Source: Rugalucina vietnamica (taxonomy: Eukaryota > Mollusca > Bivalvia > Lucinida > Lucinidae). Taken from it: 64,000 nt of DNA. Below are positions 4,358-61,657 of the stretch, piece after piece (position 1 is the stretch's first letter; each line of letters opens with the position of its first letter). The stretch covers positions 17,797,851 through 17,861,850 of the forward strand of contig OZ024878.1 of the NCBI GenBank assembly GCA_964017185.1. Direction: 5' to 3'. The notes under the pieces were generated by a model. That model was not told where the DNA came from, did not search any database, and saw nothing but the letters and a program-made list of their open reading frames with translations. The position numbers and the translations under genes were made by a program.

Positions 4358-4551
4358 TTTTGCATGTTGACAAATATATAATTTCATATTAGATTTCCTA
4401 TTGTTTAGTTTTTCTTTCACCATTTAAATAATGTGAAATATGACATAATTTCGTTAGGAAGTATGTTAAGATTTTTTAACAGTCAAGTTTATGTATAACC
4501 GGAATTTATGGACATTAATGTTTCCTGGCCGCATCACCCCATATAATTTTC

Positions 4552-4950
4552 GATATTCACCACGAGGACCGTACAACTAACTAAATGTTGTGACCCACTG
4601 CAGAAGCTGAGGGTGAGGTTATGTAAAACTAGTTTAAGCCAGCCAGTAAATTTATATTACTGATCGTTCCAAGGCGATACTTTTGTGGTGGATCTTATTG
4701 TTTTATGTTTTGGAGTTGAATTTTTGTGCTGTTTGCGCCTGATGTGCGCTTTTATGGTTTAGTTAATTTGGATAACTGAGTGGTCGCCTATTATAAAAAA
4801 AAAAAAGCCGCTCACTCAGCTTATATGACTTACTATTATGTTTTCTTAGTATAGTACCGAATTTTTTCCCACCTCGGATTTTAGAGTGGGAATTTCTTGA
4901 TCATTTCCTGATCATTGCCTACTTTTACCTTTTCTATCACGTTGCCCACT
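4552..4950 (+). repeat. R1 repeat copy
   Basis: It runs from ATTCACCACGAGGACCG to GATCATTGCCTACTTTTACC. It has an A-run at 4796-4805 and several indels relative to the 60.7 kb copy. Confidence 0.75.
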
Positions 4951-7178: not shown

Positions 7179-7410
7179 AAATCGTTACGAAAACATGTCC
7201 ATGCAATATACAAAGAATTTTAGAGATGGGAAAAATTTGCAGTTGATCTTCTTTTATATTTTATTTTTGTTTCTTAACAAACGACGAGTACCGAAAATCA
7301 ATGTTTTGGAGCAAAATAAGAAAGATAGGTATACCTCTGTAAATCCTAGATTTACTATATATAAGTGGGGTTTAAGAGGGTATACATTTCATGGGCGTGT
7401 TTTCCTCATG
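7179..7410. mobile_element. PalB foldback element, core-deleted
   Basis: It runs from TTACGAAAACATGTCCATGC to GGGCGTGTTTTCCTCATG. The central AGAACCGCCTCG hairpin is missing. It faces the next copy head to head with a 5-bp gap. Confidence 0.6.
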
Positions 7411-7415
7411 GTTAT

Positions 7416-7740
7416 CATCAGGAAAACACGCCCGTGCAATGAATACCCCCGTAAACCCCACTTTTATATAGTAAAACTGGGGTGTGCAGGGGTATACCTA
7501 TTTTTCTTATTTTTGCTCCAAAACATAGATTTTGGGTACTCGTTAGAACCGCTTTGCTCCAAAACATAGATTTTGGGTACTCGTTAGAACCGCCTCGCCG
7601 AGGCGGTTCTAACTTGTACCCACAATCTATGTTTTGAGCAAAAATAAGAAAAATATCAAAAATTTTCAGCTAAAAATTTTCAATTTTTAAAGCTCAAAAA
7701 TAAAATTCTCTGTATATTGCATGGGCAAGTTTTCGTAATG
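7416..7740. mobile_element. PalB foldback element with internal tandem duplication
   Basis: It starts CATCAGGAAAACACGCCCGT and ends GGGCAAGTTTTCGTAATG. The centre is a hairpin, GAACCGCCTCGCCGAGGCGG, flanked by CAAAACATAGATT and complement. About 41 bp (GCTCCAAAACATAGATTTTG..AGAACCG) is present twice in tandem on the left arm. Confidence 0.75.
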
Positions 7741-9103: not shown

Positions 9104-9340
9104 TGAGCCTGTGCATGAGAAAACCAACAATTTGGGTTTCCGACCAGGTCCGACATAAACCAGGCTGTACAGTTACAGAATAAAGCTAGAAGCTTGAAAC
9201 TTTGAATATAAGTAGAGGAGGCATTGTACTATCCGTGTGGCGAACACAAAGGCGCTGATCAGCTTCGCAGTTACTGCGAAGCTGATCTGCGTCTTTGTTT
9301 TCGCATATGCAAATTGTTGGTTTTCTCACGCACAGGCTCA
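9104..9340. mobile_element. PalA element, variant ends
   Basis: The ends read TGAGCCTGTGCATGAGAAAA (complement GTGCGTGAGAAAAC). It has an otherwise full-length core with CAGCTTCGCAGTTACTGCGA. Confidence 0.75.
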
Positions 9341-9449
9341 AATATTGATACCTCACAGTGGTACACGCATTTTAGCAAGCGTAGCGTTTCTAAAGTGTCT
9401 CAGTATAGTATGCAGTGAAATTCTGAACCTTTGCAGGTATGTCCAATGA

Positions 9450-10015: not shown

Positions 10016-10067
10016 GTAAGACAGAAAGCTCAGGGCTTGACTCAAGGCGTGTATGGTACTGAATCTG

Positions 10068-10158
10068 TTGAGTCCTCGTTTTTGTTTCATCAGGATGTTT
10101 ATCATGATTTACCTGTTTGTTCTTGATGATTCATTGATTAGTTAGAGATTCACCAAGA
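10068..10158 (+). repeat. R1 repeat, left part split off by Element I
   Basis: It begins GTTGAGTCCTCGTTTTTG and matches 16608-16698. It continues at 13000 on the other side of Element I. Confidence 0.8.
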
Positions 10159-12999
10159 CACGCCCGGTAAAGTGCAAATTGACCACCGCCGGTGGTCAAC
10201 GTAAAAAAAGTTGATATACATCCGGTGGTCGTTTTGAGCCTTTCCTGTTATTAGTTTTCGCGAGTTTGGTGGATGTGGAAGGTAAGATGTTTCTAGATCA
10301 AAAACGTATTATAAAAATCAAAGAATGTCAGGCTATCAGTTTTTTGCCGCTGAATGTCTAGCAGAAGTGGTGGTTGAAAAAAATAAACCGTTTTACTGCA
10401 ATCCTTTCCGGCCCGTTTGATCGGTAGTGAAAACGAAAGTAGAATCTGGTCAAACACAGGTTAAAATGCCATGATCGTGCCTTTGCAAGCTTTCTGTAAC
10501 CAATAGTCGTTGCAGTTAGTTAAATGAACACTAAATTAGATTTTCAGACATAATTTTAAAATATTTCAAGCTTTCCTTTCAACACTTAGATCGATTTTGA
10601 ACCGGCGGTCAACTTGAAGTTGTGGTGGTCGTATTGATCAATGGGGATTACAATGTAAATTTTCATCGTGAGAGAAAGTCAGCAAAAATGCAACTTGATG
10701 TCGTTTTCTGTTAGGGGACACGGCAACATTAATGGAGATTCATTCCATACACAACCAAATCCAAATCAATGCCGTCGGTGTCCTCATAATTCAATTTTGT
10801 TTGTCCATTAGCCATTCAGTCACATAGTTTAGCAATATCTGATGTATTTATTACTAATTTTTGCTAACCCTAACAATACAAATACTACCTCATGCAACAT
10901 GCATTGAATTCATATACATAATTCGCATTGACTCGAAGAAAAACCACTAGAATAACAGTGTGGTCAATTTGCAAAGTAGGTGGTCAAGTTGACCTTAAAA
11001 TGAGCAAGTTTGAAATGATTTACTGTCCAATTTGAAAAGTATTGAAGGACATGCCTGCTGTTTAATGTTGAGCAGACTCAGTCTTGCATATTCGACAATT
11101 ATAGGAGCAACACTAAGCAAAGCGTTCATTGTGTTGTTCGTATGAAATCTATCTCCTGTTTTGCAATATCACTTCTTTGAACATGTAAAGGTGAATAATC
11201 ACGTGGTTTATATCAATTATATCAGAAGTTCTTCGGGAACAACAGCTTGTGCATTGCTGGTGCCAATAGATTCTGTATTAGCTTGTGCATAGCTATGGTC
11301 TATCATAATCAAACTTCGTTTTGATTTCTTTGGGGTGCTAGTATACGGACTTAATACTTTTGATTTAGTCCCTGTTTTTATGTTTTTCTTCTTAGGAAAT
11401 CCGACTTTCCTTTCGGTGTATAAATTTTAGGACAAATTGTCTTTTGGGGTGATGAACCGATAGCTCTATAGGGTGATGAACTGTATTTTGGCTTTTTCTT
11501 AGATGGCGATATGAACAGACTCTTGTCAACGTCTTGAATTTCCTGTCCACGCCAGAGATATGTTTTTGTGTTCGTCAGGTAACGACGCTTGGTTCGTTTA
11601 CCTTTAAATCGACCCATCTGGGAACGTATAAGGAAAAAAATAAGGTCAGTAGGCGCACCTAGAACTGACGAGGCCAGTTATTCTTCAGCATTCATACATG
11701 CATTCATTCTACACTTTGCAGTGGACAATCACGTGATCTCGACTCGTTTGAACTAGCGTTTGGGCTTAACCGGCGAGCCAATCGACTACTGGCAAAATCC
11801 AGAAACATATGAATCTATTATTCCAATTGCTCGTGACAATGTGATGAAGAGGTACATGCATGTGTAATTTACACGCCAATTCATTTAGCATTGACGATTT
11901 TATTATGACCATTGTTTCTAAATATTTCGTCTGAAATTGATATAAACCACGTGATTATTCACCTTTACATATTCAAAGAAGTGATATTGCAAAACAGGAG
12001 ATAGATTTCATACGAACAACACAATATTAATGAACGCTTTGCTTAGTGTTACTCCTATAATTGTCGAATATGCAAGACTGAGCCTGCTCAACATTAAACA
12101 GCAGGCATGTCCTTCAATACTTTTCAAATTGGACAGTAAATCATTTCAAACTTGCTCATTTTAAGGTCAAATTGACCACCTACTTTGCAAATTGACCACA
12201 CTGCTATTCTAGTGGTTTTTCCTCGAGTCAATGCGAATTATGTATATAAATTCAATGCATCTTGCATGAGGTTGTATTTGTATTGTTGGGGTTACCAAAA
12301 TTAGTAATAAATACATCAGATATTGCTAAACTATGTGACTGAATGGCTAATGGACAAACGAAATTGAATTATGAGGACACCGACGGCATTGATTTGGATT
12401 TGGTTGTGTCTAGAATGCATCTCCATTAATGTTGCCGTGCCCCCTAACAGAAAACGACATCAAGTTGCATTTTTGCTGACTTTCTCTCACGATGAAAATT
12501 TACATTGTAATCCTCATTGATCAATACGACCACCACAACTTCAAGTTGACCGCCGGTACAAAATCGATCGAAGTGTTGAAAGGAAAGCTTGAAATATTTT
12601 AAAATTATGTCTGAAAAGCTAATTTAGTGTTCATTTAACTAACTGCAACGACCATTGGTTATAGAAAGCTTGCAAAGGCACGATCAGGGCATTTTAACCT
12701 GTGTTTGACCAGATTCTACTTTCGTTTTCACTACCGATCAAACGGGCCGGAAAGGATTGTAGTAAAACGGTTTATTTTTTTCAACTACCACTTCGGCTAG
12801 ACATTCAACGGCAAAAAACTGATAGCCTGACATTCTTTGATTTTTATAATACGTTTTTGATCATAAAACACCTTACCTTCCACATCCACCAAACTCGCGA
12901 AAACTAATAACAGGAAACGCTCAAAACGACCACCCGATGTATATCAACTTTTTTTACGTTGACCACCGGCGGTGGTCAATTTGCACTTTACCGGGCGTG
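10159..12999. mobile_element. Element I: DNA transposon-like element with ~1.06 kb terminal inverted repeats
   Basis: The left arm (10159-11218) is the reverse complement of the right arm (11935-12999) along its whole length with few mismatches; a 716-bp unique centre separates them. The ends read CACGCCCGGTAAAGTGCAAA and its complement. Just inside lies a smaller palindrome, ACCACCGCCGGTGGT. The element is flanked by CAAGA on both sides (10154-10158 and 13000-13004), a perfect 5-bp target duplication. It interrupts an R1 repeat: R1 stops at 10158 and resumes at 13000, and an uninterrupted paralogous site sits near 16690-16700. No transposase is recognised; only a short basic ORF lies in the centre, so the copy is probably non-autonomous. 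The 5-bp duplication and CAC-starting ends resemble Transib-type elements, but that classification is an inference. Confidence 0.85.
11378..11617 (-). CDS. Small basic ORF in the centre of Element I, unknown function
   Basis: This 79-residue reading frame lies wholly in the unique centre of Element I. It is rich in Lys, Arg, Ser and Pro and starts MGRFKGKRTKRRY, with SPSKKKPKYSSSPYR in the middle and no hydrophobic segments. The ATG directly follows a pyrimidine-rich tract ending in CAG, so it could start an internal exon of a longer spliced transcript. Directly downstream, a shifted frame (about 11235-11400) continues with similar Lys/Ser/Pro-rich composition (for example TPKKSKRSLI), which suggests the original protein was longer and is now frameshifted. 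It could be a DNA-binding or accessory transposon protein, or chance. I do not recognise the family. Confidence 0.3.
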   Translation of the reverse strand: MGRFKGKRTKRRYLTNTKTYLWRGQEIQDVDKSLFISPSKKKPKYSSSPYRAIGSSPQKTICPKIYTPKGKSDFLRRKT

Positions 13000-13442
13000 C
13001 AAGAGGACCGAAGAACTATCTAAATGTTATGAACCACTGCAGAAGCTGAGGGTGAGGTTATGGCCATGTAAAATCGATTAAAGCCCGCCAGTAATCTTAT
13101 ATTACTGATCGTTCCAAGGCGATACTTCTGTGGTGGTTCTTTTTGTTTTATGTCTTGGTGCTTAAATTTTTGTGCTGTTGGCGCATTATGTATGTTTTCA
13201 TATTTTGAGTTAGGTTTAGGTAGCTGAGTGGCCACCTATTGGGAAAATAGCTGCTCATTCGGCTTACGATATGTCGTCATGTGGTATTTAGACCTGATTG
13301 TTAATTTAGTTTTTCCCACCTCGGTTTTTGGAGTGGGAATCTTTTTCTGTTTGCGCCTGTTCCTGTGCTTTGCCTACTTGTACCTTTTTAATCCCTAAAA
13401 TAATGGTATAGTATTGACTATTCTAAGGCGATACTTCTGTTG

Positions 13443-13445
<3 letters not shown>

Positions 13446-13490
<45 letters not shown>
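13446..13490 (+). repeat. Poly-T tract (45 bp)
   Basis: A homopolymer T run between the R1 block and its degenerate partner in copy A. The matching site of copy B is a T-rich tract with (GT)n. Confidence 0.9.
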
Positions 13491-13493
<3 letters not shown>

Positions 13494-15087
13494 TGAGTAC
13501 CCTACTATTGGGAAATAGCTGTTCACTCGGTTTACAATATTTTCTCTTTATATTGGTACATATACCTGAGTGTCGTTTGAGTTTTTCCAACCTCGGTTTT
13601 TGGAGTGGGACATTCACCATGTCCTGATCATTGCTTTCATTTATCTTTTTATTTGATTCTTTTTATGGGGAATGTTGGGCCCTTTTAGATATGACCATTT
13701 CATAAATTTACTTTAATTATGTCATACTCTCACATAGTACCGTATTTAGCGTGATTTACAGGGTTACCCGAAACGATAGCTTTTGCGACACAGAGCAGAT
13801 GCTAATATCTATAATCCCCCTAACACTGGGGCTTAGCAGTCTTACTTATAAAACGACTTGAACGTAAATTTAATATTTATTTTACACGTCCAAAGTTCAT
13901 GTCGCATGCTTTAACGCAGGAAGCTCATGGAACTTACGTGTATTGGAAATTTACGCTATATAGTCTTTCGTGGCGAAGGAAGCAAACCCGGCGGACTACC
14001 ACCTACCTTGACGGGCGATGATCACTATGCTATTTTGTGACGTAACGTTTGCATGAAATTCTACTAGTCAGGAAAATTACTTAGAACGGATAACTGGAGA
14101 AAGAAAAGACCGATCAATCTAACCAGTCCTGACCTCACTTTCACAAACAGATTGAGGTCTCCGGTCAGCGAACTTAAGGTACCATTAAAAATAGTGCATC
14201 AATGTTTGTACATCGAGAATACTGTTTTGTACCATTTGTGTGTACCAGACGCATATGCAAGTATCATGCAAATGAAAATAATCTGTCAAGGTCGTTAGCG
14301 TTTTCGACTTTCTTTCTACTTAAAGTACGAAACGTTTCGTTTCTGAAATGTCATGTTCTTCAACACGCCTACAATCACAATCAATTAATCATATTTAGAT
14401 TGTTTCAGATAGTTGATGATTAGCATTTTCGCTCAACTTTTGAACTATATTTATACAGTTCCAATAGAAAGCATCTGTTTTATTATGTGTTATCTTATTG
14501 TTATGCATGACAGCGGTACAAACACTATCTCAGACACACGGTCGGCATGAGAATAAGGATACTGATATGAATTAATGCAATTACATATAGCCATTACTAG
14601 CGTTGTTAGCTTTCATGTATCATGTTTTGTTTACAGTGCATTACAACTGATGACAGTTCCACTCTGTCAATGCTATTCGAGAAATATCATACAATATATG
14701 TATCAAAGATCCTTTTCAATGCTTCCCGAACAGAACCTGAATACTGATACCCCAGTGTCATTAAAAGAACTACATAATTATTTGTCTAGGATATAAATAA
14801 TGAAACACTATGATGGTTTATTTTTGCAGTTTATTTTAGACTGTATCCCGAGTTAATGTGAAAAGAATGTCTAGAATTACACGAATCAGTCAAAAGGAAA
14901 AGCCACTACAAGGCGATACGTATGTACATGTACAATAGCTCTTTCCCAGCGCGGAAACCATTGAATCTTTTGAGAACTAATTGTGCTGAAACGTTATTTT
15001 ATACAAACATTTCCGATAAATAGCCCACTTCTTTGACATGTTATGTATGCTGGTATCATTTAGTTATGATGCATGTGCTATTTCTCG

Positions 15088-15284
15088 ATTTTGACCTCAG
15101 ATGCGCCAAAAGACCAACGGGGTCTTATGGAAGGTAAGTCAACTACGAAATGCCGCAAGTTTTCAGTTACATTTGGGTTGCAAGTCACAGTAAGTATTTG
15201 TACTGTTACAATATGAACACCCTAAGTAGACTCGTCGATCTTTTGACGCATCTGAGGTCAAAATCGAGCTAAAGTACTATTTCA
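15088..15284. repeat. Inverted-repeat block within copy A
   Basis: The arms contain TCGATTTTGACCTCAGATGC and its complement, about 33 bp each, around ~120 bp. The same block occurs in copy B at 18838-19038. It looks like a small MITE that predates the duplication. Confidence 0.65.
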
Positions 15285-16084
15285 CTGACCTTGGCATGTA
15301 TAGATTATGACAATTTGTATTTTTATTTCCTCATTTAAGCATAGTTATGCTTTTCTAGTGATTTATAATCTTATTTTTGATACAGACCATTAGACTAGAT
15401 TAGACTAGATCAGACTAGATACAGTTAATTTGTTATTCTTCAAATTCTACTACGTAATTCTCCAGGCTAAACTGTTGTATAACGAAGGTTAACGTCTCAC
15501 CCTAGAGCAATTTGTCTATATCATTTTGCGACACATATTCAGCGGGATTTCGTAATCATAATTATAACATATTTTTCTCTCGTTGATAAATATGAAGCTA
15601 GACCTGTCCAAGTTGTATCGTCCCCAGTCTCGTACAAAAAGAGTATTCACTATTCATGTATGTGTCTACATGTTTGTACCATATACAAGAAGAAGCATAT
15701 GAAAAGAATGGTACTGATTTCTTGTCCTCTTTTGTCAAACAAACAAGCCGTTGTCGATATGTCTCGGTGAAACATCTTTATATATATTAGTTTCGTGTGA
15801 ATTAATGGAAGTTGCGTTATCTGTGGTAAGGTAGCAAAGGAAAGAATGGAAAGCAATGGAAAGAAATAATCTAGTAACTGTTCTATCCCTACTTGAAAAG
15901 TGTGTAAAAACAGAAAATATAAATGTGTAAAAGCCTTTGTAGATTCAATTTTTACTTGTGTTTCGCACTACTTAGAGCAGGAGTATAAATTATAGGATGG
16001 TGTGCATATAAGAAAGATCCAATAACGTGTTTTATTTGGCTGTTTGATTTCAAAGACCCGATCTCATAAAACCGTTACATGTAA

Positions 16085-16607: not shown

Positions 16608-19543
16608 TGTTGAGTCCTCGTTTTTGCTTCATCAGAATGTTTATCATGATTTATCTGTTTGTTCTTGATGATTCTTGACTAGTTAGACATTCACCACGAG
16701 GACCGAAGAACTAACTAAATGTTATGAACCACTGCAGAAGCTGAGGGTGAGGTTATGGCCATGTAAAATCGATTAAAGCCCGCCAGTAATCTTATATTAC
16801 TGATCGTTCCAAGGCGATACTTCTGTGGTGGTTCTTTTTGTTTTATGTCTTGGTGCTTAAATTTTTGTGCTGTTGGCGCCTTACGTATGTTTTCATATTT
16901 TTAGTTAGGTTTAGGTAGCTGAGTGGCAACCTATTGGGAAAATAGCTGCTCATTCGGCTTACGATATGTCTTCATGGTATTAAGACCAGATTGTTAATTT
17001 AGTTTTTCCCCACCCCGGTTTTGGAGTGGGAAATTTTTTCTGATTGCGCCTTCTCCTGATCTTTGCCTACTTGTACCTTTTTAATCCATTGACTATTCTA
17101 AGGCGATACTTCTGTTGTCACTTATGTTTTTTATTATTATTATTTTTTTTTTTATTTTTTTTTTTTTTTTATTTTTATTTTTTTTTTGTTTTTATTTTTT
17201 TTTTTTGTGTGTGTGTGTGTGAGTAGCCTCCTTTTGGGAAATAGCTGTTCACTCGGTTTACATTATTTTCTCTTTATATTGGTACATGTACCTGAGTGTC
17301 AACTGAGTTTTTCCAACCTCGGTTTTTGGAGTGGGACATTCGCTATGTCCTGATCATTGCTTTCATTTATCTTTTTATTTGATTCTTTTTATGGGGAATG
17401 TTGGGCCCTTTTAGATTTGACCATTTCATAAATTTACTGTAATTATGTCATACTCTCACATAGTACCGTATTTAGCGTGATTTACAGGGTTACCCGAAAC
17501 GATAGCTTTTGCTACACATAGCAGATACTAATATCTATAATCCCCCTAACACTGGGGCTTAGCAGTCTTATTTATAAAACGACTTGAACGCAAATTTAAT
17601 ATTTATTTTACACGTCCAAAGTTCATGTCGCATGCTTTAACGCCGGAAGCTCATGGAACTTACGTGTATTGAAAATTTACGTTGTATAGTATTTCGTGGT
17701 GAAGGATGCGAATCCCGGCGGACTACCACCTACCTTGACGGGCGATGATCACTATGCTATTTTGTGACGTAACGTTTGCAAGAAATTCTACTAGTCAGGA
17801 AAATTACTTAGAACGGAAAGAACCGATCAATCTAACCAGTCCTGACCTCACCATCACAAACAGATTGAGGTCTCCGGTCAGCAAACTTAAGGTACCATTA
17901 AAATAGTGCATCAATGTTTAAACAGCGAGAATACTTTTTTGTATCATTTGTGTGTACCAGACGCATATGCAAGTATCACGCAAATGAAAATAATCTGTCA
18001 TGGTCGTTAGCGTTTTCGACTTACTTTCTACTTAAAGTACGGAACGTTTCGTTTCTGAAATGTCATGTTCTTCAATACGCCTACAATGACAATCAATTAA
18101 TCATATTTAGATTGTTTCAGATAGTTGATGATTAGCATTTTCGCTCAACTTTTGAACTATATTTATACAGTTCCAATAGAAAGCATCTGTTTTATTATGT
18201 GTTATCTTATTGTTATGCTTGACAGCGGTACAAACACTATCTCAGACACACGGTCGGCATGAGAATAAGGATACTGATATGAATTAATGCAATTACAAAT
18301 ATCCATTACTAGCTTTGTTAGCTTTCATGCATCATGTTTTGTTTACAGTGCATTACAACTGATGACAGTTCCACTCTGTCAATGCTATTCGAGAAATATC
18401 ATATTACAATATATGTATCAAAGATCCTTCTCAATGCTTCCCGAACAGAACGTGAATACTGATACCCCAGTGTCATTAAAAGAACTACATAATTATTTGT
18501 TTAGGATATAAATAATGAAACACTATGATGGTTACAGTTTGCAGTTTATTTTAGACTGTATCCCGAGTTAAATGTGAAAAGAATGTCTAGAATTACACGA
18601 ATCAGTCAAAAGGAAAAGTCACTACAAGGCGATGCGTATTTTAAAAACATGTACAAAGAGCAAGATGACTAGCTCTTTCCCAGCGCGGAAACCATTGAAT
18701 CTTTTGAGAACTAATTGTGCTGAAACGTTATTTTTTACGAAATTTTCCGATATGATTCGCTAAATGATAATATTAAATAGCCCACTTCTTTGACATGTTA
18801 TGTATGCTGGTGTCATTTACTTATGATACATGTGCTATTTCTCGATTTTGACCTCAGATGCGTCAAAAGACCAATGGGTTCTTATGGAAGGTATGTCAAC
18901 TACGAAATGCCGCAAGTTTTCAGTTACATTTGGGTTGGAAGTCACAGTAAGTATTTGTACTGTTACAATATGAATACCCTAAGTAGACTCGTCGATCTTT
19001 TGACGCGTCAGAGGTCAAAATCGAGCTATAGTACTATTTTACTGACCGTGGCATGTATAGATTATGACAATTTGTATTTTTATTTCCACATTAAAGCATA
19101 GTTATGCTTTTCTAGTGATTTATAATCTTATTTTTGATACAGACCATTAGACTAGATTAGACTAGATCAGACTAGATACAGTTAATTTGTTTTTCTTCAA
19201 ATTCTACTACGTTATTCTCCAGCGCTAAACTGTTGTATAACGAAGATTAACGTCTCACCCTAGAGCAATTTGTCTATATCATTTTGCGACACATATTCAG
19301 CGGGATTTTGTAATCATAATAATAACATGTTTTTCTCTCGTTAATAAATATGAAGCTAGACCTGTCCAAGTTGTATCGTCCCCAGTCTCGTACAAAAAGG
19401 GTATTCACTATTCATGTATGTGTCTACATGTTTGTACCATATACAATAAGAAGCATATGAAAAGAATGGTACTGATTTCTTGTCCTCTTTTGTCAAACAA
19501 ACAAGCCGTTGTCGATATGTCTCGATGAAACATCTCTATATAT
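16608..19543 (+). repeat. Long repeat unit, copy B (uninterrupted)
   Basis: This is the intact counterpart of copy A and carries the empty Element I target (TTCACCACGAGGACC near 16690). Differences from A are scattered substitutions, a longer T-rich/(GT)n tract (17128-17220) and short indels. Copies A and B are in direct orientation about 0.8 kb apart, so this is either a tandem segmental duplication or two insertions of one long repeat. Confidence 0.85.
18838..19038. repeat. Inverted-repeat block within copy B
   Basis: Counterpart of 15088-15284. The arms keep the TTGACCTCAGATGCGTCAAA type pairing. Confidence 0.65.
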
Positions 19544-19621
19544 ACTCCTCCTCAAAAATTCCGGTCACATAATTGTTTCTACTTCTCAATAAATAAATAA
19601 AAACTGTGTACCTTTTTTTAA

Positions 19622-24350: not shown

Positions 24351-24412
24351 TATTTTACGTATGATAAGGGGCTCTGTAACAAAATCCGCTGAATAGGTGC
24401 CGTGGCAGAATC

Positions 24413-24690
24413 ATTACGAAAAGATGCCCATGTAATATGCAGAGATTTTTAAAGTTGTAAAAAATGAAAATTTTCAGTAGAAAAATCTCAATATTTTTCT
24501 TATTTTTGCTCCAAACATAGATTGTGGGTACAAGTTAGAACCGCCTTGCCGAGGCGGTTCTAACGAGTACCCACAATCTATGTTTTGGAGCAAAAATAAG
24601 AAAAATAGGTATACCCCTGCAAACACCAGTTTTACTATATAAAATTGGGGTTTACGGGGGTTTTCATTGCACGGACATGTTTTCCTGATG
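24413..24690. mobile_element. PalB foldback element, full length
   Basis: The core is AACCGCCTTGCCGAGGCGGT. The ends are CATTACGAAAAGATGCCCAT and complement of CATCAGGAAAACATGTCCGT. It sits between the direct and inverted parts of repeat copy C. Confidence 0.75.
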
Positions 24691-24711
24691 TGATAGAGAC
24701 AAATTACTCTA

Positions 24712-24825: not shown

Positions 24826-25527
24826 ACGGCTTATATTTAAATGATAAAATAAAATCAGTAGTAAAGTTATAAACTCGCTTATACACTGAAAAACTTTAAA
24901 AACTCAAAAGTTAAAATTCATTCTTTTTATTTTTAGCTGTTCGATTTCAATGAAATTTCAAATAAATAAACATTGATATAAATGGAAACTACGTGGAGAA
25001 TTTCGTATCAAAATAAGGAGTAATGTGAGAGCAATAGTCTTTGATATAGCAATACCCCTAAAATCCAAAATTGCAAAGTAATATTGAGCATGACTACAAG
25101 TCCCTTGTCTTACAGAGCATCGCTTTGTCATTAAAAGCAAAGGTTTTGCCGTTTGCATGATTGTCTGGCACTGAATAAGTCATGGTCGACGCAATTTCGA
25201 CGTAATTTAGTGCTGTGACGTCGATTCTTTAGAGACATTAGCGCCTTCACGTAAAACGTTTGGTTGGTCAGACCAGCGACAACCTTTTATTGTCCCAATA
25301 GCCCCGGAGGGAACACTGAGGTGCCGAATAGTTGAACCATTGCAAATATGACGTCAAGTGACGTCACATATACGTCATCAAATTTGTAAAACTTCAGTTG
25401 TACCGGATAATTCATTTTCGATGACCCGTAAAATAATCAATAAAGAAGCAAAACTGAAACTTAAGTTGTTTTTTTTATATAAATGGATTTCTACAAGCTC
25501 CATGTGAAATGGTAAAATACTTAATCC
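24826..25527. other. Intergenic between two PalB copies
   Basis: Holds the TGACGTCA cluster at 25.34 kb. Otherwise nothing recognised. Confidence 0.45.
25340..25380. promoter_or_regulatory. Cluster of TGACGTCA-like sites
   Basis: ATGACGTCAAGTGACGTCAC followed by TACGTCATCA gives two exact CRE-type octamers and one half match in 30 bp. More CGACGT motifs lie at 25190-25220. There is no gene nearby, so function is doubtful. Confidence 0.3.
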
Positions 25528-25807
25528 CATCAGGAAAACATGTCCGTGCAATGAATACCCCCTCAAACCCCACTTTTATACAGTAAAACTGGGGTATGCA
25601 GGGGTATTCCTATTTTTCTTATTTTTGCTCCAAAACATAGATTGTGGGTACTCGTTAGAACCGCCTCGGCGAGGCGGTTCTAACGTGTACCCACAATCTA
25701 TGTTTTGAGCAAAAATAAGAAAAAATATCAAAATTTTTCTCATGAAATTTTCAATTTTTACCGGTGAAAAAAATCCCTGTATATTACATGGGCAAGTTTT
25801 GGTAATG
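25528..25807. mobile_element. PalB foldback element, full length
   Basis: It starts CATCAGGAAAACATGTCCGT and ends AAGTTTTGGTAATG. The perfect core is GAACCGCCTCGGCGAGGCGG. It is inverted relative to the 24.4 kb copy. Confidence 0.75.
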
Positions 25808-26054
25808 ATTATTTCAACAGGCGCGATACGGAAAACGTAAAATGGCCTTTTATTGCTGAAGGTGGTCAGTGTTTTTAAAAACGTCGCTTTCATTGAATAA
25901 AAAAGAAGTAGAATACAGTAACCGACCCCTTTCAACCGTTACGGAAGACTAAAACTGTTATTTGTGCAGAAACAAAATATATTTTTTTTTCTAACTAAAT
26001 ACTATCAAAACGTACATAAGCTTTTAACAGCATAAAAACATATAACACAAAAAC

Positions 26055-26430
26055 ATAAAACAACAGACGTATTGCCTTGTAATGATCAGTTATATAAAAT
26101 TACTGGCTGGGCTTAAATTGCTTTTACATGGCATAACCTCATCCTCAGCTTTTGCAGTGGTTCACAACATTTAGTTAGGTATTCGGTCCTCGTGAAGAAT
26201 CTTTAACTAGTCAGCGAATCATCGCGGACAAACAAATAAACCATATAAACATCATGATGAATCAAAATCGAGGACTCACAGATACAATAAGCTGCCCAGC
26301 GATGGAGATCCCTGGGCGCCAAACAACATCTCTGAAAAACTGCAGCAAAAGAAAAACACCAGTTGAACCCCGATGGGCCTAGCAGCAGACAAGAAGCTCC
26401 GGACACGCCGACGGGCAATTAAAAGAAGCA
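26055..26430 (-). repeat. R1 repeat copy with extended GC-rich 5' part
   Basis: On the minus strand it runs from a GC-rich leader (about 26280-26430, GGCCCATCGGGGTTCAACTG) through GAGTCCTCGATTTTG to CTGATCATTACAAGGCAATA. No other copy in the window shows this leader, so R1 may extend further 5' than the truncated copies suggest. Confidence 0.65.
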
Positions 26431-38288: not shown

Positions 38289-39463
38289 TTACGTGAATAG
38301 AAGGACGCTTGAAAATGCTGATTCTAGCCCTACATGATCGGGATTATTTCGTCCTTGAACATACAGGACGTTTCCCCTCGTCAGTTTCAATATTAAGTTC
38401 ACGGTGTTGGCTTCATAATGACCGTTGCTAGTATCACCAAAATAAAATCTATGCACTTGCTCTGTATCTTTCATTAGGTACATGTCAAGAGTTTTCCCTG
38501 ATTGTGCGACGATCTTGACCCCGACTGAATAGGTACCATTTACTGGGACGGTTAAATGGCCGAATATAGGATTGTATATGTTTCCCATGTTGGTGTGGAC
38601 CTTATCAAAAATAAGTGTCTGTCGGGCATACACATTGACGTTGTTTGTCCGAGTGGCGCTGAATGCAAATTTCGATTTGCTTAACATCCAGTCTGAAAGG
38701 AAATGAAAGTATAAAGGACATGACACGTGTATAGCTATACAGATCGAAAAACAAAAACTCGGCTTGAATAGATCTAGAAGGCTTTCGGAGCCCAAGAATA
38801 GCGTCGGTTTTGTTGATACCAAAATACCATTCATTTTGTGTAATATCATAGGTCTGCAATAAAATGTTCTATTGTTCTATGGTTAACACAATGTTAAGGA
38901 TGCATCTAAGTAAAGTATGTACTGCCTTCGTATTGGTGTCATCAAATTCAACACAATTCGGACTGTGCAACCACACAATAGATTCGAGAGATTGGATGAA
39001 TGAAGTGGATGAAATGCACATAATGTTTATCTCGAAACATCTGTCTCGAAAACAAAGGCGAAAAACATCTTAAAAGCAATTATATTGGAGTGCATGCGTG
39101 TGCGTATATTAGACGCATTTAATTAATCGTACTGTTGACCAGCTGATGCTTATCTTTACAGGTTATCTCAGCCCTCAACAATCGACTTATGCTAGACAGA
39201 ACACTGACATAAAAGCAACCCGTCCATTTTTATAAATTCAAAACTTGAATAACGCTATATTTACCGGCGTCCCGTTGCATTCTGTTGTCGATTTCACTCA
39301 ACTTGTCCTCCAGGGTGTTCACTTCATCCTGTAGTCGTATACGTTCCGCTCTCTCTACCTGTAGTAACTCGTTGACGTCACTGACGTTAGCTGGAGCTGC
39401 ATTTGTGACGCTTACTATGAAAACACATGACATCAAAACAAAAGCGTCTACGCCCAGTGCCAT
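38289..39463 (-). CDS. Secreted C1q-domain-containing protein, two exons
   Basis: Exon 1 is 39265-39463 and exon 2 is 38289-38692, joined by a GT-AG intron of 572 bp (phase 1), giving 200 residues. Residues 1-22 form a signal peptide with a hydrophobic core (FVLMSCVFIVSV) and an Ala-rich cleavage region. Residues about 30-62 are a heptad-like, charged coiled coil (LQVERAERIRLQDEVNTLE). The rest is a globular C1q/TNF-like domain: FAFSATRTNN near its start, then IFDKVHTNMGNIYNP, an FGHLTVPVNGTYSV-type strand and a hydrophobic end (SVLLFT). There are no collagen Gly-X-Y repeats, so this is the collagen-less 'ghC1q/C1q-like' architecture that is greatly expanded in bivalves. Family members bind microbial surfaces or act as secreted lectin-like recognition proteins; the ligand here is unknown. 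The coiled coil probably drives trimer formation. The start is the only ATG in front of the signal peptide. A TATTAAAA motif lies about 75 bp upstream (39535-39546, minus strand) as a possible TATA element. Confidence 0.88.
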
Positions 39464-47200: not shown

Positions 47201-50200
47201 CATCATCTGACATTCTCGGGTTTTTAGTTACAGGGAGGAAAGAAAAAAAAAACTTACCTCGAACACATTCGGGTACAACACAAACCTTGGATTTGACCCA
47301 ACAACTCCTACACCGGAAACCGTCAATTTCTCTTTCCATGGAGCACCGGCGGTGTACAAATTGACCGTTTCCCGGGTGTGAATATGTGCTATACATTTTG
47401 TTTATTTTACAAAAGTGCTGGAATTTGGCAATATTTGCGAGAAAACACTTTTTGTTTAAAAGTTTGTTGCCAAAATTTCAAATTTCTGGCTTGCAATAAG
47501 CTTTATAGATTGCACAAGTACTCACTTTTTAATTCAGGTACTCACTTATAGTTGGGAAATACAAATTTCAAGAAACATGATTATGAAAACAGCATGAAAA
47601 ATTGAAAATTATTGGGAATAAAATTTGATAATTTTAATATGTTTGCTCAAAACATTAATTGTGGGTACACTTTAGAACCGCCTCGCCAAGGTTGTTCTAA
47701 CGAGTACCCACAATCTATTTTTTGGAGCAAAAATAAGAAAGATAGGTATACACCTGCATACCCCAGTTTTGCTATATAATATAAAAGTGGGGTTCACAGG
47801 TTATACATTACACAGACATGTTTTTGTGATGATAAAAGTCATGCAAAAATTTACAAACTAACAAAACTTGCTTATTGTCTGTTGAAGTAGTCATTGATTT
47901 CTTGAAAACATATTGTAATCTCTTAATCTAGATAGTTATCACATTCATCATACATTTGGTCTCCATTTCTTTGAAAGTGTGTTCGTGGCAAGGTTTAAGA
48001 TATTGGAATATAGACATTCATCATGGTTAAAATCCTGGTAAACTGCATTTGATACATTTCTTAAAGCTAAACATAAGCTTTTTTAGCTCACCTGAGCCGA
48101 AGGCTCACAGGTGAGCTTATAGTATACCCATGCTCCGGCGCCCGTCCGTCGTCCGTCCGTCGTCCGTCGTCCACAATTTCAAAGATCTTCTCCTCTGAAA
48201 CCGCTTGGCCAATCAAAGCCAAACTTCATGTGGAGCATCCTTAGGAAGGGGGAACGAAAGTTTATATAAATGGTCCAGGTCACATGACCAAGATGGCCGC
48301 CATGGCTATAAATAGCAAAAACCTTTAAAAATCTTCTTCTCCAGAACCAGTGGGCCGATTTCCACGAAACTTGGTATGTAGCATTGGGGACGTGAGCCCA
48401 TCATAGTTTGTATAAATCATGACCCTAGGATGACCTTGACCTATTTTACGGCAAGGTCAACTTAGGTCGCCAATGCATTTGAATGGGAAAAAATGGTAAA
48501 TTGCTATTTAATGGGTAAAACTTACTGGGAATAGGCAAATGGACAGAAGATTAATGTTAATGGAAAATTTTAGCCCCTGGGGGGTTGTCTGCCCCTGCCC
48601 CGGGGCTATATACATGTATATTTCCATAATAATGAAACATCTTCTTCCCTGAAACCGCATGGCCAATCAAAGCCAAACTTCATATGGAGCATCCATGGGA
48701 AGGGGGAAAGAAAGTTTATATAAATGGTCAAGGTCACATGACCAAGATGGCCGCCATGACTATAAATAGAAAAAACCTTTAAAAATCTTCTTTTTCAGAA
48801 CCAGAAGGCCAATGATTTTGAAACTTGATGTGAAGCATCAGTGACTGGAGCTCTACAAAGCTTATATAAATCATGACCCTGGGATGACCTTGACCTATTT
48901 TACGGCAAGGTCAACATAGGTCGCTCATGCATTTGAATGGGGAAAAGTGTTAAAATGTCATTTTTAGGGAAAAACTTGCAGGAAATGGGCAAATGGACTT
49001 AAGATTGATGATTCTGAAAAAATTTGGATCCCAGGGGTATGTCAGCCCCCACCCCGGGGCAATATACATGTATATTACAGTGATATTCAAAGATCTTCTT
49101 CTCTGAAACTGCTTGGCCAATCAAAGCCAAACTTTATGAGGAGCATTGTTAGGAAGTGGGAATGAAAGTGTATATAAATGGTCATGGTCACATGACCAAG
49201 ATGGCTGTCATAGCTATAAATAGCAAAAACCTTTAAAAATCTTTTCCTCCAGAACAAGAAGGCCTATGATTTTGAAACTTGGCATGAAGCATCAGGCAAT
49301 GGAGCTCTACAAAGTTATATAAATCGTGACCCTTTGATGACCTTGACCTATTTTACGGCAAGGTCAACTTAGGTCGCCCATGCATTTGAATGGGGAAAAT
49401 TGTTAAAATGTCATTTGAAGGGCAAAACTTTCAGTAAATTGGCAAATGGACTGCAGTTTTATGTTTTCAAAAAGAAATTGACTCCAGGGGTTGCTCTGAC
49501 CAAGCCCTTGGAGCACCAGGGGTTGCTCTGACCAAGCCCTGGGGTTATATACATGGATATTACCATTCTAATCAAACAAGTTTATTGGTATATATCTCGG
49601 GTTTCAGGTGAGCGTTTACAGGACCATTGGTCCTCTGGTTTGTTTTACTTTTGTTGTTACCCTATATGAGCCGTATCGTAAGAAAACCGGATTTTTGCGT
49701 ATGCGAAAACAAAGGCGCAGATCAGCTTCTTAGTAACTGCGAAGCTGATCAGTGCCTTTGTTTTCGCTACACGGATAGTACAATTTCTCGTTTTCTTAAA
49801 TCCGAAACTTCAAGCCTCTAGCCTTTTTCTCTGACTGTACAGGCCGGTTTGTGTCAGACCTGGTCGGAAATCCCGAAGACCGGTTTTCTCGCGTCGCGGC
49901 TCATATTGTGAGGGAATTCTCACAAAGTTTTGATCAAAATTATATTTGATTAAGTTAGGGCTCAATGTTCCACAGACAACATAGGTCATTCAGAGATGGG
50001 GAATCAAAAATATAAACATTGTCATAATTTTGTACATTTGGATGAAATTCTAGAGTGCATACATGGATATGTAATATTTTACAGTTAACCAAATTGTTTT
50101 TGCAAAAAGATAAACTCATGAAAATAAATCAATGTTCATAGAAGCCATTTCTGCAGTCCGCAAAGAAAATCCCAAATCACCATGAATATATGCTTCAATG

Positions 50201-56200: not shown

Positions 56201-59200
56201 TGCAGGTATCTATAGTGATGTCTCGGACGCATGGGCAGAGACAGAGAATGATTGTGTGTGGAGCCTTAGCAGCCATGCATCTGTTGTTTTTATTGTATTT
56301 ACATTTTGCATATCATCAAATTGTAGAAGGTATGTATACTAGTCAAAAAGTTCTACCCCCCCTCCCCTCCTAGCTGTGCTTTTACCAATTTCCTCCAAAC
56401 CTTAAAACCGTTAAACATTCCAAAGTAATTCAGTGTCCCCATATTAATAGAAAATATTTTTAAGATAAAAATAAGGAATGCTTTATTTTAGCATTTTAAG
56501 AAACTAATGAAATGGTTAGTACTTTTCCCTGGTACACTCACTAGGATATCTACATTGGCACTTTGCATTTTGTCCTTCTGCCGCTGTTACAGACGACAAA
56601 ACGCAAACTTTGGATACTTTGGAAGTCTCTCCTGATGTATGTTAGTAAACAGTTGTGACCAAAAAGCATTTCTGTTTGCAAGATTCTGAAATTTTTAAAG
56701 ATTTGTGCACTGAAAACCTTATAAGATCGAAAACTTTCCATGTACGGTTTTGTCAGAATTGTCCAGTTTCGTCATTGGCAGGCTTAATTTTACAATAAAA
56801 CTTGACAATCATAATGAGAATGATCAATTTTGTTTTTGTTTTTTTGCATATGCGAAAACAAAGACGCAAATCAGCTGTGCAGTAACTGCACAGCTGATCA
56901 GTGCCTTTGTATTTGCAACACAGTACAATCTCTCTTCTTAAATCCAAAATTTCAAGGTTTTAGCCTGCTTCTGTGACTGTACAGGCCGGTTTGTGTCAGA
57001 CCTGGTCCGAAACCCAAATTGTTGCTTTTCTGATGCAGAGGTTAACATAATTCATTTTATGCTCCAATTCATTTCAGATTTATCCCAAGTGTTTGAGTCT
57101 CACCAACCAGTTCCAGCAGTACAACCAGATGCTGGGGTACCTCAGTCTGTCGATAGTAAGTTCAGCTACTAACAAAATAGGGCAAAATGCATGTGTGTTG
57201 GTTTCACAAAAATATATGAGCCTTGTTGTAAGAAAACTTACATTTGGGGCTATACTACCCACTGAAGGTGTTAATGGGCTGTGTGCAAGTGCAGGCTGAG
57301 CAACATCTTTGGCATTCTAGAGATCATATCCTAGCTGCTGAAATATACAGGTGAACTTCTCATTATAGCACTTTCCTGGGGCTCTATATAGGTTGTGTTA
57401 TAAGTTAACTGAAGTTTTTTTACGGTACAGTGAAATAATACCCCAGCGGGCACATGACGTCAAAATGACGTCATATCGACGTCATTCTGACGTCATGTGC
57501 CTGCTGGGACATGGCTCTGGTATATTTAAATCATTTTATTACCATAATTCACCTGGTTTCTGTGTCTGGCTGTTTTATAACTGCAAAGATAATGTGTTTT
57601 CTTACAGTGAGGCTTATATGAGGGTTATCACTTACAAAATTTGTAAACTGTTTTTGTGTTGGGCATTAATTCTGAAATGTTGTGAAAAGCTCTAAGTATT
57701 TGAGCCGCCTCGTGGGAAAACCAACAATGTGGTTTCCGAACAGGTCTAACACAAACCGACCTGTACAAGCACAGAAAAGAGCTAGAAGCTTGAAATTTTA
57801 GATTTAAGTAGAAGAGGAATTGTACTATCCGAGTAGCGAAAACAAAGGCGCTGATCAGCTTCGCAGTTACCGCGAAGCTGATCTGCGTCTTTGTTTTGGC
57901 ATATGCAGATTGTTGGTTTTCCATTTGTCTTTGTAACATTGGAACTGTGAATGTAGACTGGCTGATTTCTTAGGCATCGAAACAATGTCATGCTTTAAAC
58001 TTTGACATCTGGGTTGAATTTTTGAGTGGTTGTGAATATATGAAAGAATAGGGTGTATTTTCGGTACCGTAAGAAGTTCACAGGACTTTTTTTTTTTATA
58101 CTACTGGATTCTGATACTGTAATTCATGGTTAGCCAATGCTCTAGGTTTATTAGTTCTTTATTTGAGCCGCCTCATGAGAAAACCAACAATCTACATATG
58201 CGAAAACAAAGACATAGATCAGCTTCGCGGTAACCGCGAAGCTGATCAGCGCCTTTGTTTTCGCTAAACGGATAGTACAAGCCCTCTTCTATTTATATCC
58301 AAAATTTCAAGCATATAGCACTGTTCTGTGCTTGTGCAGCTCAGTTTGTGTCGGACCTGTTCAAAAACCACATTGTTGGTTTTCCCACGAGGCGGCTCAT
58401 TTTATGATTTGTAAGCAACACAAACTCTATTGGTTCAAAAGATGATCATGTGCTTTTTGATTCAAAACATAGATTGTGGGTACTCAGCGAGGCAGTTCTA
58501 ACGTGTACACACAATCAATATTTGAACAAAAATGTTAAAAATATCAAAATTTTTCCAGTAAAGTTTTCCTTTTTTTTACAAACAAAAATAATCTCTGTAT
58601 ATTGCAAGGGCATGTTTCATAATTAAGTAATACTTTTTTTTCACCATCAAGCTAATTGCTGATTGTGCTTTGGTAGAAATTAAGCATTTCAAGTCTATTC
58701 TTCCTTGTCTTGTCCAGTAATTCAAAAATACATAAACAGGGGCCAGTTGTTCACAATTATTGACGTAGGGAGTTAATGATTCGTTAAAATTTCAAATGGC
58801 CATATTACAAATACAGTTATTTTTAATGAAAAAAAGTGACGAAAAAATGTGAGAATCAAAAAGTATTTGTATTTGCTTTTGAAGTTGATATAAGTTGATA
58901 TATAGTTAACAGATTGAGGGCTTAAGGACAGAGTTAAGCTAACAAAGTTTTGAACAGCTGGCCCCAGGTGCCAGTTAATAAAAAGGAGTGTATAGTAAGT
59001 ACTGGTAATCTGCATCTGAGAGGCTAGCCTAGGAACAGTATGGCTGGGATAACTGACTATCCTGACACAACCTTAGCAGTTGACCATGCACCAACTCAAG
59101 AAAGCTCAAACAAACAAATTAAAAGACAAATAATCTTAAACCATGACCCCACATCTGTATGTTTACAGAAGTGGCCGATGTGGTAGCCAATGGTGCAGAA

Positions 59201-60689: not shown

Positions 60690-61135
60690 TAAGGATGTTT
60701 ATCGTGATTTATTTGTTTGTTCTTGATGATTCATTGACTAGTTAGTGATTCACCACGAGGACCGAAGAACTAACTAAATGTTATGAACCACTGCAGAAGC
60801 TGAGGGTGAGGTTATGGCCATGTAAAGCCGGTTTAAGCCTGCCAGTAACTTTGTGTTACTGATCGTTCCAAGGCGATACTTCTGTGGTGGTTCTTTTTGT
60901 TTTATGTCTTGGTGTTTAAAATTTTTGTGCTGTTGGCGCCTTATGTATGTTTTCATATTTTTAGTTAAGTTTAGGTAACTGAGTGGCCACCTATTGGGAA
61001 AATAGCTGCTCATTCGGCTTACGATATGTTTTCATGGTATAAGTACCTGATTGTTAGTTTGGTTTTTTCCCACCTCGGTTTTTGGAGTGGGAATCTTTTT
61101 CTGATTGCGCCTTTTCCTTGTACCTTTTTAAAGGA
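60690..61135 (+). repeat. R1 repeat copy downstream of YIPF3
   Basis: One of the best-preserved R1 copies, from GATGTTTATCGTGATTTATT to TTCCTTGTACCTTTTTAAAG. It retains TGGTGGTTCTTTTTGTTTTA and GAGTGGCCACCTATTGGGAA. Confidence 0.8.
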
Positions 61136-61333: not shown

Positions 61334-61569
61334 TGAGCCGCCCCATGGGAAAACCAACAATCTGCACAGGCGAAAACAAAAGCGCAGATCAGCTTCGCGG
61401 TAACCGCGAAGCTGATCAGCGCCTTTGTTTTCGCTACTCGGATAGAACAATTCCTCCTCTACTTAACTCCAAAATTTCAAGCTTCTAGCTCTTTTCTGAG
61501 CTTGTACAGGCCGGTTTGTGTCGGACCTGTTCGGAAACCACATTGTTGGTTTTTCCACGAGGTGGCTCA
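61334..61569. mobile_element. PalA element, full length, inserted in an older PalA copy
   Basis: 236 bp with perfect ends and core. An older half copy (about 61195-61330, AACTTAAACCAGCCTGTACA to GATAACAAAGACACA) lies directly before it, and its remaining arm (GCATATGCAAATTGTTGGTT) follows at 61577-61612, consistent with nesting. Confidence 0.75.
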
Positions 61570-61657
61570 TATGTTTTGCATATGCAAATTGTTGGTTTTC
61601 TGATGTGGTGGCTATGTTTTCCCTCATCCTTCCCCATCCCCCTACTTTCAAATCCAT

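Follow-up and report, generated by a model that had tools for sequence, protein, structure and literature searches.

We analyzed a 64,000-nucleotide stretch of the genome of the lucinid bivalve Rugalucina vietnamica (GenBank assembly GCA_964017185.1, contig OZ024878.1, positions 17,797,851 to 17,861,850 of the forward strand; hereafter the window), which contains an insert with long inverted arms. The element occupies 2,841 bp (window 10159-12999) and has CAC...GTG ends. It comprises a left arm of 1,060 bp that starts with CACGCCCGGTAAAGTGCAAATTGACC (10159..11218, plus strand), a loop of 716 bp (11219..11934) and a right arm of 1,065 bp that is an inverted copy of the left one (11935..12999, minus strand) and closes the element with the reverse complement of CACGCCCGGTAAAGTGCAAATTGACC. 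The two arms align at 96.2% identity over 1,066 columns, 33 of which are substitutions and 7 gaps. Their first 64 bases pair without a mismatch, the first one falling at base 65, and no tandem array was found in this copy. This agrees with a preliminary description made from the sequence alone, which had reported a 2.84-kb element with inverted arms of about 1.06 kb.

Empty sites of the window copy

The element is flanked on the left (10154..10158) and on the right (13000..13004) by the direct repeat CAAGA, its target-site duplication. An exact 5-bp repeat flanked 0.16% of 200,000 stretches of 2,841 bp drawn at random from the window, and the chance of such a match is put at 0.14-0.16%. When the flanks of the element were joined with a single CAAGA, their match to 16608-17731 ran straight through the junction (88.4% identity). 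The joined flanks also matched a second paralogous empty site at 60692-61118 (plus strand, 91.8%) and, in reverse, a third at 26289-25991 (25991..26289, minus strand, 78.7%). At a fourth place (4549-4933), similarity on the left side extends no further than 17 bases from the end of CAAGA. The paralogues have CACGA where the occupied site has CAAGA. The empty site near 16690, with its junction at about 16694/16695, lies within a larger direct duplication of 2.9 kb, in which 10066-15786 (minus the element) corresponds to 16608-19544 (plus strand). The two units differ by 122 substitutions in 2,839 aligned sites (4.3%), and one of them carries the element. The earlier claim of a CAAGA duplication and of an uninterrupted copy of the interrupted sequence, labeled R1, near 16690 therefore holds, with further empty sites at 60692-61118 and 26289-25991. 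Uninterrupted sites are established for the window copy only. R1 itself is a repeat, present in the window at 13000-13387, 16611-17080, 60692-61118, 26402-25992 and other places.

A high-copy family with constant ends

We searched the whole genome (1.09 Gb, 47 contigs) with the 242-bp terminus of the element and obtained 737 candidate places, of which the best 40 were scored and are 97-100% identical. Twenty of these 40, on 14 contigs, were read in rank order over 9.9 kb each, skipping the window's own place and second ends. The left end is present in all 20 copies and both ends in 19, L038 being without a right end. An exact 5-bp duplication flanks 16 of the 19 two-ended genome copies, or 17 of 20 when the window copy is included; the deviating cases are L046 (6 bp), L047 (5 bp with one mismatch) and L053 (none). 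Variable or absent duplications, which the preliminary description held would speak against a Transib origin, are thus not the rule. The family terminus reads CACGCCCGGTAAAG and the family ends are CACGCCCGG, and 37 of 40 arms agree with the majority sequence in all of their first 12 bases.

Target statistics were drawn from 17 genome copies and the window copy, with L046 and L053 excluded. The base before the duplication (-1) is C in 10 of 18 copies and the base after it (+1) is G in 10 of 18, while A or T make up 75 of the 90 duplicated bases (83%, versus 63% in the flank background). The pattern resembles what a preferred target would look like.

Two-ended copies range from 2,317 to 7,137 bp. 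Of the 19 genome copies, 14 have arms of 1,040-1,063 bp, close to the roughly 1.06 kb of the window copy; the arms of the other five (L036, L040, L046, L048 and L050) are shortened or broken. Two size forms recur. The 3.9-kb form is represented by L037, L042, L045, L047 and L051; the 2.84-kb form, represented by the window copy, L034, L035, L039 and L041, is shorter by a segment of about 1,050 bp bordered by TTAAG, with the junction in the loop of the window copy near 11346/11347. Since TTAAG stands at both borders of the 1,050-bp segment and the segment has no inverted ends, a deletion at microhomology and an insertion are both possible. Other lengths are seen in L036, L040, L049, L050 and L053. 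A comparison on the plus strand made 11 loops look unrelated, as if cargo had been swapped. We discarded this idea after comparing both strands: with either strand allowed, the L034 loop is matched by every one of the 19 others, and the loops form a single family in two orientations.

In the five longest copies (L043, L044, L046, L048 and L052), the loops contain segments that the majority sequence does not have. This accounts for their extra length, and we rejected them as autonomous elements. The preliminary description had named longer members of the family as the place to look for a transposase, and none was recognized in these copies; the nested-segment frames of L043, L044, L046 and L048 were judged by eye, and the Pfam scan covered only the 326-amino-acid frame of L052, which gives a weak reverse-transcriptase match (RVT_1, E 0.15, below the cut-off). 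Because the R1 sequence interrupted by the window copy also forms the 3' part of this L052 segment, the window copy probably inserted into the tail of a retroelement.

Apparently recent movement and arm history

The copies lie 1.3-3.5% from a five-copy majority sequence to which five of them contributed, and the family is apparently recent. The window copy and L034 are 99.2% identical and have different duplications (CAAGA and ATGAT). Their corresponding arms are 0.5% and 0.9% apart, whereas the left and right arms of the same copy are 3.0-3.1% apart. Since the corresponding arms are the closest and the targets differ, the mismatched arms moved together as one unit. The arm differences that the two copies share also mean that an insertion cannot be dated by the divergence of its arms, and we rejected this approach. 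The arms of L039 and L049 are instead most similar to their own partners, which suggests occasional arm homogenization. Own-arm divergence is inflated for L036, L040, L046, L048 and L050, in which a fixed 1,060-base cut overran the shortened arms.

A repeated motif in the arms

The motif GTGGTCAANTTG, allowing at most one mismatch, has 10 sites in the window, 8 of them inside the element, versus 1.8 expected in the whole window. Each arm has four sites, in the window copy as well as in the majority sequence of the 3.9-kb form, and the loop of the latter has none. Site 1, the outermost, lies inside the first 28 bases of the element (10175..10186, minus strand, on the left; 12972..12983, plus strand, on the right), and on the left it overlaps a 21-bp near-palindrome (10179-10199). 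Site 2 has one mismatch in both arms (GCGGTCAACTTG on the left, 10605..10616, plus strand; 12542..12553, minus strand, on the right), and sites 3 and 4 sit together at 10960..10991 (plus strand) and 12168..12199 (minus strand). The 7-mer GGTGGTC occurs five times in the real arm and at most once in any of 300 shuffles. Such a set of sites would be expected of a transposase-binding array.

Coding content

The loop of the window copy contains a short lysine- and serine-rich frame that starts with MGRFKGKRTKRR (11346..11617, minus strand). By eye, a splice-like tract precedes it, and in the window copy it is shifted by an insertion or deletion. The frame recurs in the genome, with 305 candidates, and all of the best 150, which were scored, matched. 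In the 2.84-kb majority sequence it runs for 153 codons from stop to stop. The majority frame has no Pfam domain, and the short frame has only chance-level matches in the PDB. The pooled nonsynonymous-to-synonymous (N/S) ratio against the majority sequence is 0.83 over 17 copies that are not independent of each other (the partial copies L040, L043 and L053 were excluded); 14 of the 17 carry insertions or deletions and 4 carry stops. The length that the frame has in the window copy is unremarkable, since an ATG frame as long arose in 56 of 500 shuffles. The frame looks near neutral among copies; in our reading it is either non-coding or what is left of a longer gene. A 322-amino-acid frame in a further copy, L054, arises where the short frame reads on into what, by eye, resembles the tail of a non-long-terminal-repeat reverse transcriptase.

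A Pfam scan of 15 frames and pieces from the loop and arms of the window copy recognized no transposase; its best match was DUF6908 (E 0.073, below the cut-off). A piece resembling piggyBac (11757-11864) was rejected, having no Pfam match and PDB matches at chance level. Rfam gave no match at the gathering score, the left arm had no match among phages, and exact 20- and 22-base terminal patterns had none in the viral contig collection. An 18-base terminal pattern hit three bacterial contigs, which we took for chance (about 7 expected).

Other features of the window

Elsewhere in the window, a hairpin at 7313-7513 has 98-base arms that are 86% complementary and 5 bases apart, and an inverted pair at 24409-24694 and 25524-25810 aligns over 288 columns at 89%, with about 830 bases between its members. 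A reading frame at 38292-38876 (minus strand) encodes a C1q domain (Pfam PF00386, E 1.9e-16; 10 window frames scanned). A tandem array at 48179-49453 holds 2.8 copies of a 454-bp unit. A dispersed repeat of about 190 bp occurs in many places and in both orientations, for instance at 9159-9347, 57698-57922 and 61348-61572.

Discussion

The insert is firmly supported as a mobile element. We propose, with a probability of about 85%, that it is a non-autonomous DNA transposon of the foldback type, moved by cut-and-paste in trans. The assignment to the cut-and-paste class draws on the fixed inverted ends seen in many copies, the near-constant 5-bp duplication and the empty sites of the window copy. 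Several observations pull the other way. No transposase-bearing relative was found among the copies read, and for this reason we can only infer movement in trans. The sample of 20 copies is biased, having been taken from the top matches to the terminus of the window copy. The arm motif was chosen post hoc, after inspection of the sequence; some 7-mer occurs at least five times in 74 of 300 arm shuffles, five being the top 7-mer count in the real arm; and four sites in both arms are kept in only 10 of 20 copies, single arms having 1 to 4. Finally, the lysine- and serine-rich frame is open in many copies and may encode a small protein of the element.

Under the proposed mechanism, a transposase made elsewhere would bind the GTGGTCAANTTG repeats of both arms, pair the ends and cut at CAC/GTG. 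The long arms could supply several binding sites per end, by analogy with Galileo. Insertion would take place with a 5-bp stagger at a target of the form C-(5 A/T-rich bases)-G, and fill-in would produce the duplication. As the arm differences shared by the window copy and L034 at different targets show, the whole unit moves as one piece, mismatched arms included.

The likeliest mobilizing enzyme, at about even odds, is a DDE transposase from the group with CAC...GTG ends (CMCT). That a transposase outside the CMCT clade moves the family, either P-type as in Galileo or of an undescribed superfamily, comes close to an even chance. Galileo duplicates 7 bp and the P superfamily 7-8 bp, and the 5 bp seen here fit neither Galileo nor the 8-10 bp of Tetris. 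The build of the family, with 1-kb arms that contain repeated sites, is nevertheless like that of Galileo (PMC3688188). No P transposase or THAP domain was seen in the frames scanned, and no genome search was aimed at these.

A Chapaev-, EnSpm- or Mirage-like transposase of the CMCT clade that makes 5-bp duplications is a tentative candidate, possible at lesser odds. CAC...GTG termini are termed invariable in Chapaev (PMC4079192), and in the CMCT clade CA...TG is the usual end and duplications are of 2-5 bp (PMC12730594). The lengths given for Chapaev (3-4 bp; PMC4079192) and for fungal EnSpm (3 bp; PMC12730594) nonetheless differ from the 5 bp of this family.

The preliminary description had singled out a Transib/RAG-like pattern as the only fit among common mollusc families. 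Since CAC...GTG is shared with Chapaev and the wider CMCT clade, the ends do not single out Transib or RAG. We consider it unlikely that the family is mobilized by a Transib or RAG-like (RAGL) enzyme of the same genome; it would then be a foldback-shaped non-autonomous RAGL element. Part of the pattern stands: CAC ends and 5-bp duplications occur here as they do in RAGL and Transib elements (PMC7204232). RAGL transposons have been reported from oysters and mussels, with non-autonomous ones in the oyster P. imbricata (PMC7204232). The genome also contains RAG1-like genes. The PF12940 profile returned four candidates and three matches at two places, and had no match in 14 control genomes. One gene, at C9:34097107-34099008 (minus strand, E 5.1e-79), is a 782-amino-acid open frame without stops; the other lies in two pieces within C11:21950802-21958850 (plus strand).

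The terminus beyond CAC and the AT-rich targets weigh against RAGL and Transib. The terminus agrees with the protostome RAGL consensus CACTWMCAAACKTYKBB at 8 of 17 positions (5 of the first 11) and with a common recombination signal sequence heptamer at 3 of 7. For a nonamer, ACAAAAACC, the best match within 60 bp reaches 6 of 9 bases, the same at both ends. The start of the family, CACGCCC, matches the AanRAGL end CACACCC at 6 of 7 bases (PMC9435367), but agreement with AanRAGL is 6 of the first 11 positions, where the Repbase criterion allows one mismatch in 11 (PMC4455052). Among the copies listed (the best 150 of 305 frame candidates and the best 40 of 737 terminus candidates), the nearest lie 1.37 Mb (C9) and 3.88 Mb (C11) from a RAG1-like match. 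Both this distance and a survey of mollusc genomes, in which a single Transib element is reported (PMC10294476), count against the idea. It appears quite improbable that this foldback family, which has a high copy number, 1-kb arms and non-canonical ends (CACGCCC), is mobilized by a RAG-like transposase of this animal. If it did, the family would be a natural record of recent RAG-type transposition and target choice in a living invertebrate.

There is only a slim chance that the element is self-sufficient, with the small lysine- and serine-rich protein as part of its own machinery. The 153 open codons of the 2.84-kb majority sequence, the open frame of many copies and the splice-like tract before the ATG would suit such a protein, but the lack of a Pfam domain, the N/S ratio, the frequent insertions, deletions and stops, and the length reached by shuffled sequences argue against it. 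Assembly errors can in principle create long palindromes, but that the element is an inverted duplication or an artefact and not a transposon is hardly credible given 20 copies on 14 contigs, with differing flanks and mostly their own 5-bp duplication, and given the empty sites.

The preferred reading thus remains a non-autonomous foldback transposon moved in trans. We have not seen this family in print, in a limited literature search that did not cover Repbase and Dfam, and the terminus string cacgcccggt was met only in papers with unrelated titles. The family adds one foldback family to one animal genome. With its high copy number, exact ends and 5-bp duplication, it is clean enough for its mobilizing enzyme to be found and named. 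It also illustrates that arm-to-arm divergence in foldback elements need not date an insertion.

Comparison with known systems

The 5-bp duplication sets the family apart from Galileo and the P superfamily, with their 7-8 bp. In its build, it is like Galileo, a P-superfamily element of Drosophila with arms of about 1.2 kb and several transposase-binding sites; the sites in these long arms were shown to bind the THAP domain of the transposase (PMC3688188). The Drosophila foldback element Tetris likewise has very long arms, a variable middle without conserved frames and an autonomous partner that was not found (PMC4079207), but it makes 8-10 bp duplications and has tandem repeats in its arms, as opposed to the 5 bp and absent tandem array of the window copy. 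Ginger1 and Ginger2 differ by their TGTNR-type termini (PMC2836005), in contrast to the CAC...GTG described here. Chapaev, of the CMC group, has the same CAC...GTG termini, with duplications of 3-4 bp instead of 5 bp (PMC4079192). Transib and the non-autonomous RAGL elements of oysters differ in the terminus beyond CAC, in the AT-richness of the targets and in the 1-kb arms of this family, and share with it CAC ends and 5-bp duplications, in a genome that has RAG1-like genes of its own.

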